Shown here piece after piece: positions 3,818 through 38,166 of a DNA stretch of 64,000 bases. Below the pieces are notes generated by a model. That model made no database searches. It was not told the DNA's origin and saw only the letters and a program-made list of their open reading frames with translations. The stretch is from Perkinsus marinus ATCC 50983. Its lineage: Eukaryota > Perkinsozoa > Perkinsida > Perkinsidae. The stretch spans positions 62,001-126,000 of the forward strand of contig NW_003203798.1 of assembly GCF_000006405.1 (NCBI RefSeq), given 5' to 3'. The position numbers and the translations under genes are program-made. Numbering within the stretch: the stretch's first letter is position 1; the number at the start of each line of letters is the position of its first letter.

Positions 3818-4421
3818 CTAAAGAAGCCAATTCGTCATCCATAACACCAATTACTCTACTATTTATAACTCGACTAGGCTCTCAATACAGCGACATACGA
3901 CACCAAACGAGCGCGACCACCGACCACACAGGTTAGCCTAGGCCTGTACTTAGACTTCACACATGCATAGTGATATAGGCAATCGATTGAACCGCTTCCC
4001 AGCACTACCTTGGCAGGAAGTCTCCGAAGGGGTTGATGAAGAAGGATTTGCAGCGATTTAAGGGCTAATCGATCAGCTTGGCGGGCGAGAATCTGCTCCG
4101 CGGAGCGAAGTGAGTTTACTTTTGCGAATTTTGTCGGAGCTGCTGGGCATACTGGGAAAATCAGCTGGGCAGAGAGCCTCCGTCATTGCAGTACAGAACC
4201 CCACCGTCGCCGCGTATACTCCTTTGTCGGGAGCCATTAAGAAATAAAGAAAAAAACTCCCCCATTTTCTGGAAATCTTCCAGTGTTGTAGCTACGCTCA
4301 TCGGCCCTCGATGAGAATCTTATGGTACGCTCCCCTAGATTCAGATGAGGTTCCGTATTAAAGATACATTTAAGGTCCCTCAAGTAGAGGATGACTTTGT
4401 CATTATAGTTGTATACGTTAC
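3818..4421. promoter_or_regulatory. Divergent intergenic region between uS8 and helicase
   Basis: About 600 bp separate two genes that point away from each other, so both promoters (and any 5' UTR introns) should lie here. No clear TATA box was assigned. A segment at about 4316-4386 has ATCTTATGG and AAAGATACATTTAAGGTCC, resembling the hairpin introns in the glutaminyl-tRNA synthetase gene. It could be a diverged copy. Confidence 0.4.
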
Positions 4422-7623
<3,202 letters not shown>

Positions 7624-29386: not shown

Positions 29387-32343
29387 TCACCTTCTCCCAT
29401 TAGTAATAACCAACATCCTCTTCCCATCCACCTTCCCACGTTGTGGTGCCTTATTAATAGCCGGCTTGAAGGTACACGGAGCCAGCTCTTCCGCCTCCCT
29501 TTCCAATTCCCTCAGTTTCTGTGCCTGTATACCACTACATTACAGTATCTCCTATCACCATCCTACCTCAGCTCTCCTCTCCCTCTCCTTAGACACCCTC
29601 CTCAAATAGTCACTGCCACGTTCCACATCCAGCCGGAGCCTCCCAGGCATCTACGAGTGCTGATGGCAACAACGAAATGCTGGGAAACTCTCGCGGGTTT
29701 TTGTACACTCCTACCCCAGGTCGTATTTAAACTCTCTAGCTCCTAAAATGTATTCCAAAACTATTCGCATGCCTAGTCGAGACCGATTCAAATCTCCCAC
29801 CCATACCTCCATCAGATACCCCTGAGTGACCCTAACAACACTGTCCTCTGATCTACGCCTTTCCTCCTCTTCCTCTTCCTTCTGCAGTGTATATGCCAAT
29901 CGCTGTATACTATCCCTCCTTCTATCCATATCATCATAACATCGCTCCGCTGCCTACATCAACAACCAATCCCTCCAACTCCTACTACCCAACCCCTACC
30001 GTTCTAGAAGGGATCCTCCTCGCCTTAGCCGTGACCACAGGTACCTGCCCACCTACCTGCTTTCCATCACTCCTACCGTAACAAGCCTACGAATGGATGA
30101 GCCATCTCCATCTCCCTCAACAGTCCTTCCCTCGACAATGAATGCTTCAGCTTCACTCGCGAACCCACTTTAGGTATCGAAACGCGTCGGGATCGACTAT
30201 ATAACAAATTGCTCCATACGTTCACAGGCCTTCCCTTCTACTCGCATATCCTAGGTTCATGCGTGCAGTCCGCCCGAACTTCCCTTTCCAACTCCCCAAG
30301 CCTTTCCCGTCGCCGAGCATCACGTTCATTTTGCCGAGTGAAAAAGCCGTGCCTGAGCTAGGCATATCTTAGGTTCCACTCTACAAGATACAGATGAGGT
30401 CCCCTCATAGATCTCTACATTATATGCTGCATCTCCTCCTCACTACGTTTGCTCATACCAACCCTTCCCGTGGGCATACCATCACTTTTCTCCCCATCAG
30501 CCAACACCCTCCCATGAGATGCTAGTCGATCGAATACCTCAGAACTCCAATACCAAGCTAATAGAGCCAACCCCCCCCCACATTAGTCTGCATATACTCT
30601 CTGGCATGCCTCATGCTCCTCCTAACCGGATTGGTATACGGCTTAAAGGCACCTTCCGTCCCAACAGACAATAGTGATGATGATGATGCTGAATACAATA
30701 ATTAACTCCTTATTATCAACCATACCACACCAATCTCACCTCTCCTACTGCTATCACCAAACAGCCTACTGGATCCCCTCCTCTTCCGCTGTGACCTTCC
30801 TATATCCGGTGTGAAGGTGCCTACTACTACCGCTCTGAAACATACAGGAGGGATGGAAGCCTACAAGCCGCTATCTCCTTCTCCTCCTTCATCGCCTCCC
30901 CCGCTATCTCTCGTGCTTTCCGGCGCTCCTCCCACGCCTTCACCTAAGTACATTTGGAATCTCAAATTCAACGATGAAATGAAGTCGAAGTCCTACAAAC
31001 CCGTCATTTCGGGAAGGAAAACTTTCAATTCAAAGTTGAATATTCCATGCGCGTATATTCAAAGTGCGACGAGGAAAAAAATTAAAATTTCACAATGATA
31101 CAAAACCATACATGGAAAAGAACAAAAACCCGAATCTTCGAACTCGAAATAGAAAAGTGATTAACAATTTATCCGACAAGCCATCCATCACTACATGTTG
31201 CGGTCCCATTTTAGATCCCCTACGGCCAGTCGTAGTGGTCTTAGGCTTAAACACACACTCCTTCATAGAGGCCTCCTCCTTCTCCCTCCTCCTCTCCTCC
31301 AACTTCTCCTCTCTCTTCATCAGCCATGCCTCATGACGGCTATACACCGCTGATGGTGATGATGTACTCCGCGTTACACTACTGCACGGTAGCCTCCCAG
31401 AATCGACCACTACAGTTGGCGAGGGCACTCCTGATACCATCAGCATCACATGCGCCTCACCCGCATCAACTACCTTCCACATAAGGACTAGTATCATCCT
31501 CCGCTACTACTAAGGATATGCTATCCCAAGAGGAAGGAGTGACTTCCCCCGATGACGATGTACTAGAGGAAGAGGCCGTACGCCTAGGGTCGTCATACCT
31601 GGCATTCCAACAGTGTCAACCAAACCATAATTAGCTATGTGCAGTGATACTAGCATCATAATGCGGATCCACTGACCACATCCATAGACTCCCAAACGCT
31701 CATGCAGAAGAATATAACATTTCACTCTGCAAAACGATTCCCGTCCGAGCTACTACCCCCTCCCTCCTCTTGCCAAGCCATGATATTGAGCTGCATAAGG
31801 CCCAGCTGCTGCTGCTGCTGCCGTAGTACGACCACTAGAGGTAGTCCTAGTAGCCGTCGAGAAGGAGGAGGAAGAGGCCGATAAGGGACGGTAATGACTA
31901 TGATACGCACGGCTGAGAAGAATACACTTATCAAGGCTCTCCTTCTCCTCCTCCTCATCACACCTAGGGTCATCAGGTTCAAGGTAGGACCAGTCCGGTG
32001 AGATGGACCGTCGCCGCCGAGCCAGACCATTCGAATGCAATCTGTGGCTCCTATGGTAAACCTCAGTCGCCAACGCGTTAGCAGAGTCGAGAGACCTCAA
32101 TAACTCCTCTACAAGGACACACTAAGTATTCCCCCCTCACTTCTGCCTTACTACCATAGGGTCTAGTAGAGTCAACCCTGCTCAACCTCCACAGCTCTTC
32201 CCGCATCTCCACACTACGTCGTTGTTCCTAGAGTCAAGCCTATGCCTCATACCACTCCTTTGGAAAATTACCAACAACCGCTTAGCTGCCTCTGGAGTGA
32301 GCAGAGCCGGCACTACAGGGGTGACACCATCTAGACCAGCCAT
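29387..32343 (-). CDS. Long charged protein with recurrent CTFxP-type modules
   Basis: Minus-strand exons carry repeated modules of an Arg/Glu-rich helix followed by Cys-Thr/Val-Phe/His-x-Pro. Examples are EKLEERRREKEEASMKECVF then KPK (about 31240), RLGELEREVRADCTHEP (about 30300) and LRELEREAEELAPCTFKP (about 29500), with a partial VKAWEERRKAREIAGEAMKE near 30900. The start is the ATG at 32343 (MAGLDGVTPVVPALLTPEAA) and the stop is at 29387-29389. Exon joins in the middle are not resolved, and poly-Ala/Ser stretches occur near 31810. Proteins with such charged-helix/CTFxP repeats are common in alveolates and have no assigned function. Single or several genes cannot be separated from sequence alone. 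Confidence 0.55.
30358..30410. repeat. Copy of the hairpin-intron sequence
   Basis: ATATCTTAGGTTCC, then AAGATACAGATGAGGTCC, aligns with the two hairpin introns in the glutaminyl-tRNA synthetase gene (35478 and 35650). The arms TATCTT/AAGATA can pair. It lies within the minus-strand repeat-protein gene in inverse orientation, possibly in an intron. Confidence 0.45.
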
Positions 32344-32415
32344 AAGACTGTATACTAACATCGATGATGAAGACGATCAATTCACAAACACAACAAGAGG
32401 GTAAATGAAGCCACA

Positions 32416-32930
32416 TCACTTCACCGTGTGCGAGTCCACGGCTGCCAGCTGCTGATCGTCCAAATACTTGGCGTATTTCTCATACAATTCTGGATGCTCT
32501 TCCTTCAACTGCACATGCCCAAGACTAACACCATCAGGCCCATATGATCCCTACCTTAGGGTAAAGACTAGCCCAAGGGTCCACAACCATATCCTCCTGT
32601 ACGAATCGTTCAATCGGGAGATCCCTCATAGAGTCAACGTCGTTCCACCTCTTCCCTCCCCCCTTGCCTAAGGCAGTACGCGACGAAAGTAGACACATAG
32701 TCAACAATTGTGATGTCGAAAAATATTTTCCATAAATTTCTCGTCGGGTTCTGTGCACTTTTACACAGAATCGTATGTGAATATTTACTACCAGTGAGAG
32801 GCAGCGGCAAAAGCTGAATATATACCCCAACATCGCTCTGTACAGTCTTCTCACCTTTGTAACCTCCCTTGCGGTATCCTCCTTTCTGTTGTTGTTGCCA
32901 ACCCCAACCACCCGAGCCCTTGCCGCTCAT
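32416..32930 (-). CDS. 93-residue Gly/Gln-rich protein, unknown
   Basis: Three exons (32930-32855, 32667-32555, 32508-32416) join in phase to a 93-residue protein. The N-terminus is low complexity (MSGKGSGGWGWQQQQKGG). The second exon reads RDLPIERFVQEDMVVDPW then ASLYPK. The third is helical (LKEEHPELYEKYAKYLDD). The clean phases and the switch from low-complexity to ordered sequence argue that it is a real gene. I do not recognise the family. The first intron is 187 bp, long for this region. The second is 46 bp. Confidence 0.65.
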
Positions 32931-33589
32931 ACTGTACTGGTCATTACCCCACCTAGTGAGGAAGATACATCTTAGATGAGATCAATGATTATTACCTCTG
33001 ATGAGCATATGGTCTCGGCTCGGTCGCCGGTTGGTGCTGCTGCTGCCAATAGTCTCCACCGCCTTTTCGATACATAGGTAATCAAACTACGATGGACTCA
33101 AAATAGACTCAGAGGATACCAGCGATTCCCATCGTCGCCTATCTCGGGCCGATGACGGTAATGGGAGCAAATCGTCATACGATCATCATCATCACCCTTG
33201 AGAGCCAACTATGACATTGTATTTGTTAGTTGAGATTTCTACGTCTTTTCAACACCTATTTGAAATTAGTAATTTCAATTAGAACGAATGACCCAACTAA
33301 AAGTTAAGATCCTCGTTTGATTTGGATGAAGTTAAGAAACTCCAAGGATACTATCATTTCGAAACTCAAGTGAGGACAATTTCATATTTAAGAACTTCAG
33401 TTAGAACACATGCTTCTCAGCTCAGCAAGGGAGACCAACCCCTGATTATAAGTTCCCCTCGATGGAGCCGCACATAGCATGACAGGACATACTATTTATA
33501 TTCGGCTCGAGCAACTTGACCAAGTCATGAGTGTTTTTACTAGTGTTATTAGTGGAAGAGTACTCAACAAGAAGTCCTCAAGTTTCACA
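32931..33589. other. Intergenic, no gene recognised
   Basis: AT-rich toward 33230-33420, with no supported gene. It includes the 3' flank of TRAPPC1 and the 5' flank of the Gly-rich gene. Confidence 0.45.
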
Positions 33590-34405
33590 CTATGAAAACG
33601 CCAATGGTAAGGAAGAGTACTGGTGTTTACTCTGGAGAAATTGCCGTAGACGTGGAGCGAAGTTTGGACAACTTTTACTATCAATCGGTGAACCTGTAAT
33701 CATCACTTAATCGAATATCATCAATTCCCTAACCCCCTCTCACCTATCTCGTACATGGGATTCATCACCGCGAGCTCAACGAAGAAATCAGTGTATATAG
33801 CGGCCATAACGTCCTGCATGTCCTCCACTGTGGGGTCGGTAGTCATGATGAACATATACCTGTCCCCATTGTGGAAAAATATGTACATCGTCTACTACAT
33901 GTTACAACATTTTGAAAATTTTGACAATTTTTTTGGTTTACGTACATTTCCACTCGAATTCGTATGTAAACTTCTATAATCAGTGAGGAAGTTCCTGAGC
34001 TCAGGTGAAGATATATTATTCCAACACCGCCTATACCTTCACAACAACAATTCAGAGACCATCCACTCACCCTGTCCGAGACTCGCAGTGGTGTACTTTG
34101 TACTCCGGAGTAGAAAACCTGAACAGCTATCGAAATCGATCTGAATATTTCCTCCCGATCGACCTACGTGTTGAAGCCTTCTGGTCCAGCGCCGGCCTTG
34201 AGTGGGCTCATGGCCTGACCGAAGGACTTCATAGTTGCTATCAAACCCCATAGGAGCCGTTGCTCATGCTGAGGGGAATAATGCAGGGAAGATGGGCAGC
34301 AGCAGATGAGAGTACCTGTGCATTCTGCGCAGGTCTACTGCGATGATAGGCTTCGTAGTAGACGACTTTACCAGATGGTGCGAATATATAGAAAGTGTAT
34401 ATCAT
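33590..34405 (-). CDS. TRAPPC1: TRAPP complex subunit 1 (Bet5)
   Basis: Five exons (34405-34316, 34268-34168, 34118-34071, 33859-33744, 33693-33590) sum to 459 bp, 152 residues, the size of TRAPPC1/Bet5. The longin-like fold is recognisable: an N-terminal strand MIYTFYIFAPSGKVVYYEAY, then MKSFGQAMSPLKAG, STPEYKVHHCESRTG, MFIMTTDPTVEDM and IYTDFFVELAVMNP, close to the family's TDP...IY..LYVE.VVKNP. The last exon, ending SSLPLAFS, matches the family's SLPFF ending. TRAPP tethers ER-derived vesicles and activates Rab1/Ypt1. Introns are 47, 49, 211 and 50 bp. The 211-bp intron is AT-rich and unusual here. Confidence 0.92.
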
Positions 34406-35406
34406 CACTAAAGACGAGAAAGAGCTGCCTCTACTTGGACGGATGTGTTAACACAAGGTATCGACAAGGAAACCCTCAATATTTAACATCAGATATATCA
34501 CAACGTTACACGAGATACAAAATGAGCGGTATGGAGTCATACCACACCAATCACAACTCCTATGAGTCTGCCTACATCATTGTCGTTGACCTGGAGCATA
34601 TAAAGGAGCCCACCGATGACCTTCCACTAAAGAGGCAAGTCTGGCACAACCAAAGGGGAATATAATGTTGTTAACGTATACGTAGTGTGCTAAGCCTCAC
34701 CTCCACGGTGGAGGTAACGGAGTTGATGATGTAACGACAACTTGTTGTCGAACAACAGACTGATTATGATGAAGATATTCCACTTTTGAATTGACGGAAG
34801 ATCCCAGGAGCACAGGCGGCCCCCAGACCTCTTCCGTATCTTACCAAGGAGGACCTCTTCCGTATCTTACCGAGGAGGACCTCTTCCGTATCTTGCCGAG
34901 GAGGACCTCTTCCGTATCTTACCGAGGAGGACCTCTTCCGTATCTTACCGGTATGAACCTAATTCATATCCCTCCCGATATTCCAAACTCTGGCAAGGGA
35001 GGCCCGAGTGTGGCCGAGCCTGGAGAGTATGTGGAAAGCCACGAGCTAGATACAAGAGCAATTCGATTTATGCAACCGGCACAGCTACAAATAAATTATA
35101 TCGCATAATGATTTGGATGGTGATGCAATTAAGATGAAGGAATGCTGATCATGATTGGTGAAGGAGCGTCGGTGTTAAGGCCTAGGTTACCACGCCCGCC
35201 CGAGATCCTCGAACTGATATGCAGCAAGAAACTGATACGTAAGAAGTTGACACCGTAATGCTCGAAAGGATCGAGTACGAGATCTTGCGCTACTTGCTTG
35301 CACTTGCATTTCCTCAACGCTTTCGCAACAACGATACTCGTAAAGTAGTATAAGTTTTGGTTTCTACTCAGCCATACTACCTCGACGTCGGATTATATCG
35401 GTTTTG
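34406..35406. other. Divergent intergenic region with a tandem repeat
   Basis: Lies between TRAPPC1 (minus) and glutaminyl-tRNA synthetase (plus), so it carries both promoters. Apart from the 26-bp tandem array at 34825-34952, no gene is supported. Confidence 0.4.
34825..34952. repeat. 26-bp tandem repeat, five copies
   Basis: The unit GGACCTCTTCCGTATCTTAC plus CGAGGA is repeated five times with single-base changes (ACCAAGG, GCCGAGG variants). It remains open in one frame because 26 bp shifts the phase. Each unit contains GTATCTTAC, similar to the start of the hairpin introns. Confidence 0.85.
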
Positions 35407-38166
35407 ATGTCCGCAGAGTCGACTGGAAAGAACTTCATTCAAACTGCTGTTGATCAGGACCTGGCTCCTGGAGGAAGGTATCTTAGTTCCGGGTAGTAAG
35501 ATACAGAATAGGTCCGATTAGGTGCCATGGCAAAAGATCGTTACTCGATTCCCACCCGAGCCCAACGGATATCTCCATATTGGACACGCTAAGAGCATTT
35601 GTCTCAACTTCGGCTTGGCCAAGCAGTACGGCGGCTCCTGCCACTTGAGGTATCTTAGGTTACTCTTAGTAAGATGCAAATTAGGTTCGATTCAGGTTCG
35701 ATGATACCAACCCTAGTGCGGAAAGTGACGAGTATGTGAGGAGCATTCAGGAGGATGTCAAATGGTTAGGGTAATGTCCCCTCCAGGGATCGAACCTCCG
35801 CGGATTTCACCCTGTAGGTTCGACTGGGACGACAACCTCTTCTTCGCATCGTCCTATTTCGACCAACTGTAGCATCCTCCTCAGTGCCTCCCCTCCTATC
35901 CACTTCTTCAGTTACGAATGGGCCGAATACCTCATCAATAGAGGAGAGGCTTATGTCGACCTCCAAACCCCCGAACAGATCAGAATCAATCGCGGCAATA
36001 TCAACACTCCCGGCACAAACTCTCCTTATCGGGACCAGACTCCCGAGGAGAACCTCCGACTCTTTCGAGACATGCGTGATGGCAAATTCAAGGAAGGAGA
36101 AGCTCTCCTGCGAGCCAAGATCGATATGGCCTCCCCTAACATGAACATGCGGGACCCCCCTATGTACAGGATCCTACATAAGGAACACCATAGAACTGGA
36201 AACAAGTGGTGTATCTACCCCCTTTACGATTTCGCCCACGGCCAAGAGGATGCCATAGAGCATATTACTCATTCTATCTGCACGCTGGAGTTTGAAAACC
36301 ATAGGGAACTTTACGACTGGTGAGTAGCCGGTCTCTGTAGAGGAGTACCTCTTTCTGGGGTAGGTTTCTGGCTCATCTACCTGTACCGTCGAGACCCCAC
36401 CAGTACGAGTTCGCCAGGCTGCAGGTTACCAACACTATAATGAGCAAAAGAAAACTGCTAAAGTTGGTCAACTCACGTAACTGGAGGGAACGAGGACGGT
36501 TATTATGTTCATCTTAGTTGTATTTCAGATTCCGTACGAGGTTGGGACGACCCAAGGATGCCCACCATTTCCGGTATGCGGCGACGAGGAGTAACTCCAA
36601 AGGCCCTCCGAACCTTCTGCCAGAAGGTTGGCATCTCTACTAGTCTGAGTACTATTGATAGCGTGTTACTAGATGAATGCATTAGGGAGGATCTTGAGGT
36701 CAGTTGAGGAGCGGAATAAAATGAGAGGAATTATATAAATCTTCCCAGGCCAATTCGAATCGTAGGATGTGTGTGGTGGACCCTGTCAAGGTGTACATCG
36801 AGACTATGCCCGATGATGAGGTGGGTTTTCTTACTAGTTTCCGTATTGGGTTCATCTACCTCCCTGTAGCGAATCGAAGTAGAAGCTCCCAACCACCCTG
36901 GAATGCCGGAGGCTGGTAATATGATCACGACTCGGTTTTGATGTTGGCTACATATCCTGATGCGCACAGCGAAGATTTTCATATTGGTATCTTTCAGGAT
37001 CTCGCAAGTTGTATTTGCGGAATCATCTCGTGATTGAGTCAACTGATTTCCGTATAGATCCCCCTGAGGGGTTCAAGAGGCTTTCTCTGGGTGGAAAGGT
37101 AGTGTGCACACTGGAGCCGCCACCGTCACCGCGCCACGAAATTATCAGGTCAAACTGCGTTACGGTTATGTGATTAAGGCTGAGCGGGTTACTCCTGAAG
37201 GTGTTGTCGTCTGCAGTCACGACCCTCAGTCGCTTCATGGGGAGGGAAGCCTTCCTAAAGATGTCAAGGGGGTTATTCATTGGGTAATAGCATGGCGGCT
37301 AGTACGGGGTCATACCACTCCTTTTTCACATCGTAGGCGGTGGACGCAGAGGAGACCAACGAGGATGTAGTTCGAGGCACAGTGAACTGGTATGAGAATC
37401 TCTTGTTACCAGAATCGACCCCGACTGGTGAGTATTTTTGTGGCGCGCGGTCAAATCTAATAGGCATTTTAGATGAGGGTGCAACTTCGGAGGAGGAGGC
37501 CTCTATGATACCCGGCCTAGCAGAAGCGGAAACCAATGAGGCTGATCAGGATGGTGATAGCCAAGATCACTTTGGCAATTTTTGTATCAGTTTTTCTCAG
37601 CATGGTTATCCAAGTTGAACCCTAACAGTCTCCGAGAGTATAAGGCTTACTTCGAACCTAGCATGGCCATGGCTAAGGTATGCAGCCGTTTAGTGATTCT
37701 ATCGCTGATCACCTATTCCAGCCAATGGAAACTTTCCAATTCGAGCGAGTTGGCTATTTCGTGGTTGACAAGGACACCACGCCTGGTCAGCTTATTTGTA
37801 ACTTGACGGTTACTTTGAAGGAGAGCGGCCTCAAGAAAACCGAGGGCAAACACGCTGGGTAAGAGGTGGAGCATTGGTTCAGCCGTCGACTCATTTGGGT
37901 TTCTTAGTCGTTCTCGTAAGGAGGCTCAAGCGGCCCAGCTAGCTGAGAAGGAGGCTAAGAAAAAGATCAGGCCTGAGGATATGTTTAAAGGTTCGTACCA
38001 CACTTCCGCCATTTCTGGGGTACAAGTAGCCGTCTCAGATCAAACTGATAAGTACTCCAAGTTCGACGAGCATGGTATCCCTACGCACGATGCGGGTGGG
38101 GAGAAGCTCACTAAAAGCGCTTATAAGAAGCTTCACAAGGAATGGGAGAAGCAGAGGCGTTTGTAA
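35407..38166 (+). CDS. QARS: Glutaminyl-tRNA synthetase
   Basis: Class I aminoacyl-tRNA synthetase that charges tRNA-Gln. The HIGH region is [20 protein letters not shown] (about 35555) and the KMSKS-equivalent is [12 protein letters not shown] (about 36440). Between them lie [43 protein letters not shown] and [20 protein letters not shown], all typical of the GlnRS/GluRS subgroup. The anticodon-binding barrels follow, for example [13 protein letters not shown], and [14 protein letters not shown] near 37740. The C-terminal exon [20 protein letters not shown] leads to the stop at 38164-38166. The eukaryotic N-terminal YqeY-like extension is absent. About 15 short exons were seen; not all joins are resolved. 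Joining exons 1 and 2 in frame needs one base more than the canonical acceptor gives. Confidence 0.93.
35478..35521 (+). other. Hairpin intron 1 of QARS
   Basis: The intron starts GTATCTTA and contains TAAGATAC 11 bases later, a perfect 8-bp inverted repeat that begins at the first intron base. It ends ...GATTAG. Strongly similar to the next intron. Confidence 0.75.
35650..35695 (+). other. Hairpin intron 2 of QARS
   Basis: Starts GTATCTTAGGTTAC and contains TAAGATGC, again pairing with the first eight bases (one G-T wobble). It ends TTCGATTCAG. The exon join is in frame. Confidence 0.85.

Follow-up and report, generated by a model that had tools for sequence, protein, structure and literature searches.

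A short repeat that probably acts as an introner in both orientations in Perkinsus marinus

Results

A repeat family that makes up short introns

Two short introns of a glutaminyl-tRNA synthetase (QARS) gene of Perkinsus marinus belong to a family of closely similar repeats dispersed through the genome. We consider it probable that this is an introner family, that is, a short non-autonomous element that would be moved as DNA and that carries one bifunctional splice end. The gene lies in a 64,000-nt stretch of contig C92 (hereafter the window), and our searches covered the whole 54.46-Mb assembly of 347 contigs. The family itself, its placement as whole introns in both orientations, the continuity of proteins across the resulting junctions and the copies inside longer introns can be read directly from the assembly.

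An earlier note on this DNA had described QARS introns of 44 and 46 nt with a common start and pairing partners, and the sequence confirms this description: both introns start with GTATCTTA and contain TAAGATAC / TAAGATGC. The note had also suggested that these introns represent an introner-like family with additional genomic copies. We found such a family, with whole introns in unrelated genes and in both orientations. A 29-nt pattern with three mismatches allowed matched 652 places in the genome, compared to 3 for a reversed control. The exact arms, TATCTTAG and AAGATACA separated by 4-24 free bases, occurred at 82 places versus 1 in the reversed control, and 76 of these 82 had a fixed span of 28 nt. 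The 3′ half of the element alone was present at 210 places, tandem arrays counted (0 in the control), and its first twelve bases at 194 places (8 in the control). The spliced leader, searched with at most 2 mismatches, matched 77 genome places, 34 of them exactly CCGTAGCCATCTTGGCTCAAG, with 0 in its reversed control; according to the introduction of PMC9399869, CCGTAGCCATCTTGGCTCAAG is the 22-nt P. marinus spliced leader minus its first base. By this leader the genome appears to be that of Perkinsus and not of an alga.

The consensus was derived from 132 rows in fetched loci, reduced to 72 non-redundant rows and to 71 without N. The core of the element is 39 nt long and comprises GTATCTTAGGTT[C/G], 8 nearly free positions, AAGATACA, RAWY and AGGTCC, giving the consensus GTATCTTAGGTT[CG]N8AAGATACARAWYAGGTCC, in which conserved blocks flank a nearly free centre. 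The AGGTCC block is conserved at 72-96% across the 71 rows and is absent from the exact-arm and 29-nt search patterns, so the contrast between this block and the free centre is not a product of the search alone. Weak base preferences continue for about 10 bases past the core, and the true 3′ end of the element may therefore lie farther out. One row, at 6460-6498 of the window, was rejected as a chance match (0.8 bits by profile); it remained in the consensus, open-frame, long-flank and stem/direct-repeat counts.

Paralogs were compared in 20 pairs. Differences affect 21 of 180 sites in the centre (11.7%), 191 of 3951 in the flanks (4.8%), 10 of 200 in the tail and 7 of 400 in the stem (1.8%, a value biased by the search pattern). 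The L004/L005 pair differs at 3 of the 9 central bases of the element and at 1 of 200 sites in the flanks.

We searched the window with a profile of 65 copies, from which the copies on the window's contig and the rows of the QARS paralogs (L002, L003) had been left out. The three main copies scored E 1.2e-9 (30365-30402), 2e-7 (35478-35515) and 4.7e-7 (35650-35687). An earlier 67-copy profile, which included two L002 rows, gave 1.8e-9, 4e-7 and 9.4e-7 for the same copies, and its best match in five shuffled windows had an E of 0.88. The first of the three is the further copy that the earlier note had placed at 30358-30410, whereas the fainter copy suggested there at 4316-4386 was not recovered above chance level (its pieces scored E 0.55 and 1.6). 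Rfam gave no match within window positions 30000-36500. All features are listed in Table 1. The decayed copy and the adjoining array of 3′ halves (34826-34962, minus strand) lie upstream of QARS, and a comparable array with about 25 nt per unit is located at C137:330292-330559.

Table 1. Element copies and QARS features in the window
Feature	Start	End	Strand	Basis
Further element copy, begins ATATC	30364	30402	+	Pattern searches; profile E 1.2e-9
Tandem array, 26-nt unit from the element's 3′ half (AAGATACGGAAGAGGTCC)	34826	34934	-	Pattern and profile searches
Degenerate element copy, 5′ arm decayed	34929	34962	-	Profile E 3.8e-7
QARS exon 1	35407	35477	+	Homology tested on paralog L002
QARS intron 1, 44 nt, predicted whole-intron element copy (core 35478-35515)	35478	35521	+	Profile; frame/homology on L002
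QARS exon 2, one base short versus two paralogs	35522	35649	+	Paralog comparison
QARS intron 2, 46 nt, predicted whole-intron element copy (core 35650-35687)	35650	35695	+	Profile; L002
QARS exon 3	35696	35770	+	Sequence, paralog L002
QARS intron 3, 47 nt, tRNA T-arm-like repeat motif (different family)	35771	35817	+	Pattern search
Weak element copy	46959	46995	-	Profile E 0.0011

Predicted whole introns in sense

In sense orientation, the element is predicted to make up seven whole introns, distributed over six unrelated genes. GT-AG removal restores a conserved protein in QARS (two introns), an SLC25 carrier, an AGC kinase, Rae1, TOR and a RING protein. The introns measure 46 and 46 nt in QARS (paralog L002), 44 nt in SLC25 (L004), 41/51 nt in the kinase (L012/L025), 48 nt in Rae1 (L072), 53 nt in TOR (L033) and 40 nt in the RING gene (L071). 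P. marinus introns are described in PMC3101222 as 39 to 1622 bp long with a majority of <100. At four sites (both QARS introns, SLC25 and RING) the intron begins exactly at the element; it begins 3 nt before the element in Rae1, 6 nt before it in the kinase and 8 nt before it in TOR.

QARS is present in three copies, on contigs C92, C166 and C66, and both element introns are kept in all three. Over the stretch searched, the C92 copy is 85-86% identical to the other two. In the window, exon 2 is one base short, so that removing intron 1 does not preserve the frame; compared to two paralogs, the missing base falls within 35531-35535, and it reflects either an error of the assembly or a copy in decay. 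In paralog L002, GT-AG removal of the introns is in frame, and the joined exons match Pfam at 4.5e-35 with a domain that spans the junction. The alignment to a solved enzyme in the Protein Data Bank (PDB) is gap-free at junction 2 and has short gaps at junction 1, in a region where the proteins vary. The element motif was not found in the QARS introns after intron 2. We gave up the reading of intron 5 as a further hairpin introner once the paralogs had been compared. A 75% match was also recorded between exon sequence and a phage record, and among the 120 matches listed by a protein look-up those with names were bacterial.

The other joined proteins were assessed in the same databases. Pfam matches extend over the junction in the AGC kinase (3.3e-17) and in TOR (FAT domain, 2.9e-15), and in both the PDB alignment is gap-free there. 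Matches over the junction were also obtained for the RING protein (Pfam 2.1e-9) and the SLC25 carrier (Pfam 1.6e-5), the latter with no PDB support for the joined protein. Rae1 has an equal-length match to an mRNA export factor over the stretch 6-66. Two further candidates are not counted as proven: a HEAT-like gene (L057), where a 49-nt intron fits and the only Pfam match (E 0.044) lies outside the junction, and L034, a joined candidate without a convincing Pfam family.

Antisense introns and copies nested in longer introns

The reversed element also coincides with introns. In CDC48 (L014) it makes up a 46-nt intron that ends in CCTAAG, and the joined protein aligns over 114 residues to solved CDC48 without a gap. 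In a DDX60 helicase gene (L074) it makes up a 49-nt intron that ends in CCTAG, and the joined protein is gap-free against kDDX60. In both of these antisense introns the acceptor is provided by the element's GTATCTTAGG end. Nested copies were found as well. A second DDX60 intron (70 nt) and an intron of a KH/BBP-like gene (151 nt) each contain a reversed element with both splice sites outside it, and a PDB search placed a sense element inside a longer, 100-nt intron of a prohibitin gene (L011).

Among the 63 distinct long-flank rows, 14 were placed in introns, 1 is the chance match and 48 have no assigned gene. The 14 placed rows comprise 9 whole introns in sense (two of which are the same kinase site in two paralogs and one the weak HEAT case), 1 nested copy in sense and 4 in antisense. 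A Pfam scan within 300 nt of 47 of the 58 suitable loci identified 7 families in sense and 5 in antisense, which are not tied to individual loci. Two of the sense families are WD40 models and probably both stem from the one Rae1 locus. The counts therefore indicate no strong orientation bias.

Some coding tests did not discriminate. An open frame of 40 codons was found at 20 of 63 sites in sense, at 18 of 63 in antisense and at 19% of 1183 random sites, and the test is uninformative because the element itself carries GT and AG. A hexamer coding model (53 long ORFs, 37 kb) was too weak and was left unused. For twenty further proteins, mostly joined-ORF candidates, Pfam at E 0.01 gave no match in 18; these blanks include L011 (a prohibitin by PDB) and also L014, L074 and L076 when read in sense, three copies that lie in antisense genes. 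The other two gave a one-sided exportin-7 match (E 7.9e-4) and a weak hydrolase match (E 0.0081), the latter in an ORF downstream of a copy.

Inverted repeat, flanking repeats and empty sites

The earlier note had the first eight intron bases forming a stem. The eight pairs of QARS introns 1 and 2 do pair and fold, and the folding energy is ordinary compared to shuffled sequences (z -1.35 and -1.15), as was found for the five intron copies folded. Across the 71 rows, 49 one-sided changes and no two-sided change fall in the seven outer pairs of the stem, and the three-mismatch limit of the search still permitted two-sided changes. The eighth pair is unconserved and shows one two-sided change that still pairs. 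With no compensation among the seven outer pairs, the inverted repeat seems to be a signal at the level of DNA. Its arms are 7-8 bp long. The repeat had been proposed to be terminal; this holds for the 5′ arm, whereas the 3′ arm stops 11 nt short of the core's end.

A general target-site duplication, which the same note suggested testing for, did not emerge clearly. Direct repeats of at least 4 nt occur on both sides of 22 of 71 copies, weakly above the 15.3 expected. Most whole-intron copies in sense are flanked by AGGT or GGTA repeats, and these could reflect a splice-site preference because some other QARS introns have GT past the acceptor. The Micromonas and Aureococcus introners of Huff et al. 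(2016) reportedly have defined target-site duplications, a difference from the weak excess of direct repeats seen here.

We searched for empty sites with the joined flanks of copies, using 63 of 67 prepared queries and scoring the best candidates. Both flanks matched at 30 further places, 28 with an element-sized insert and two (C101, C129) with a shorter insert; at three additional places a single flank matched. No clean empty site was found with these 63 queries. One of the two shorter inserts was read: there, the intron of paralog L099 that corresponds to the element-bearing intron of L092 has no element, and the surrounding intron sequence differs too. The gene concerned is presumably a deoxyhypusine hydroxylase, which it resembles; the short L092/L099 query had no Pfam match.

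Discussion

Alternative explanations

Introns tolerate repeats, and a MITE-like or other repeat without any special fit to splicing might be seen in them for that reason. The copies inside longer introns, the 48 of 63 rows without gene placement and the near balance of Pfam families (7 sense, 5 antisense, 47 loci) agree with such a repeat. We nevertheless regard it as unlikely, since the seven sense introns of six genes consist of the element with 0-8 nt ahead of it and a few nt behind it, the element provides the acceptor in CDC48 and DDX60, and the 40-53-nt introns without the core would be too short for introns.

Likeness could also arise by constraint instead of copying, if ordinary introns were selected for a stem-loop that aids splicing. 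The conservation of the stem and of AGGTCC around a centre that varies most between paralogs would fit this explanation, but none of the seven stem pairs shows a compensated change, five copies fold no better than ordinary against shuffles, the later QARS introns do without the motif, and copies occur reversed and inside longer introns; selection for a stem-loop thus appears extremely improbable. The three conserved blocks, their fixed spacing and the free centre also resemble a bipartite binding site, as might be expected of a protein-binding or promoter-type DNA site that falls by chance in some introns. Such a site would hardly make up entire introns in several genes, also mid-gene, or have its 3′ half in tandem arrays, and we consider it very improbable.

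For an introner family, the proposed mechanism is as follows. The element would be non-autonomous, with trans-acting proteins that would recognise its three conserved blocks and move it as DNA. In sense, the GTATCTTAGG end would act as the 5′ splice site or sit 3-8 nt past a host one, with the acceptor AG contributed either by adjacent host sequence or by the TAGG tail of the element. In antisense, the GTATCTTAGG end would act as the 3′ splice site (CCTAAG or CCTAG), with a donor situated 11-15 nt upstream of the core. A copy that inserts into coding sequence would thus be removable from the RNA as a 40-53-nt intron. The steps of movement, block recognition and RNA splicing are what we infer from the genomic pattern.

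Relation to known introners

Introners of Amoebophrya, on the dinoflagellate side of the alveolates, carry 8-20 nt inverted repeats within introns and 3-5 nt direct repeats at the borders (PMC7789003). They share inverted repeats, predicted hairpins and many copies with our element; however, they are defined there on introns that are non-canonical and whose 5′ and 3′ ends are complementary, whereas the element here goes with canonical GT-AG introns, has its 3′ arm inside the element and has the conserved AGGTCC block outside the stem. The families of Gozashti et al. 2022 have median lengths of 30-654 nt and 5 to >2,000 copies (PMC9860276). They resemble our element as intron-forming repeat families with splice sites either carried or recruited from the host, and some have inverted repeats but no target-site duplication. 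Perkinsus is unnamed in the main text of that source, and in its accessible part we found no case of one end serving as 5′ or 3′ splice site according to orientation, as proposed here (PMC9860276). The DNA-transposon introners of Micromonas and Aureococcus are also similar in their co-opted splice sites and in their insertion in both orientations, the latter stated for the introners of Huff et al. in PMC10228655. A literature search, largely of records without full texts, found no report of introners in Perkinsus.

A second repeat was noted in QARS intron 3 and in a DDX60 intron (L074), both 47 nt long, which share a tRNA T-arm-like motif (GGGATCGAACC, GGGAATCGAACC). The pattern of QARS intron 3 matched 131 places versus 2 in its control, and another consensus matched 24 versus 0. 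A stricter form of the motif no longer covers QARS intron 3 and gave 12 distinct copies in the 360 kb searched. ARAGORN, run on the window and on 11 loci, detected no tRNA genes. This repeat is possibly a second, tRNA-derived introner family.

We tentatively put forward a wider reading, in which the element is a minimal introner, 40-50 nt long, that works both ways because its one GTATCTTAGG end may act as 5′ or 3′ splice site by orientation, and in which the tRNA-like repeat would likewise make whole introns (QARS intron 3, DDX60), so that several repeat families may feed intron gain in perkinsids at once. The origin of new introns is an old question. A mobile element of this sort can seed new introns, and with hundreds of copies in a compact, apparently perkinsid genome, some of which appear to be whole introns of housekeeping genes in both orientations, intron gain would become measurable strain by strain.
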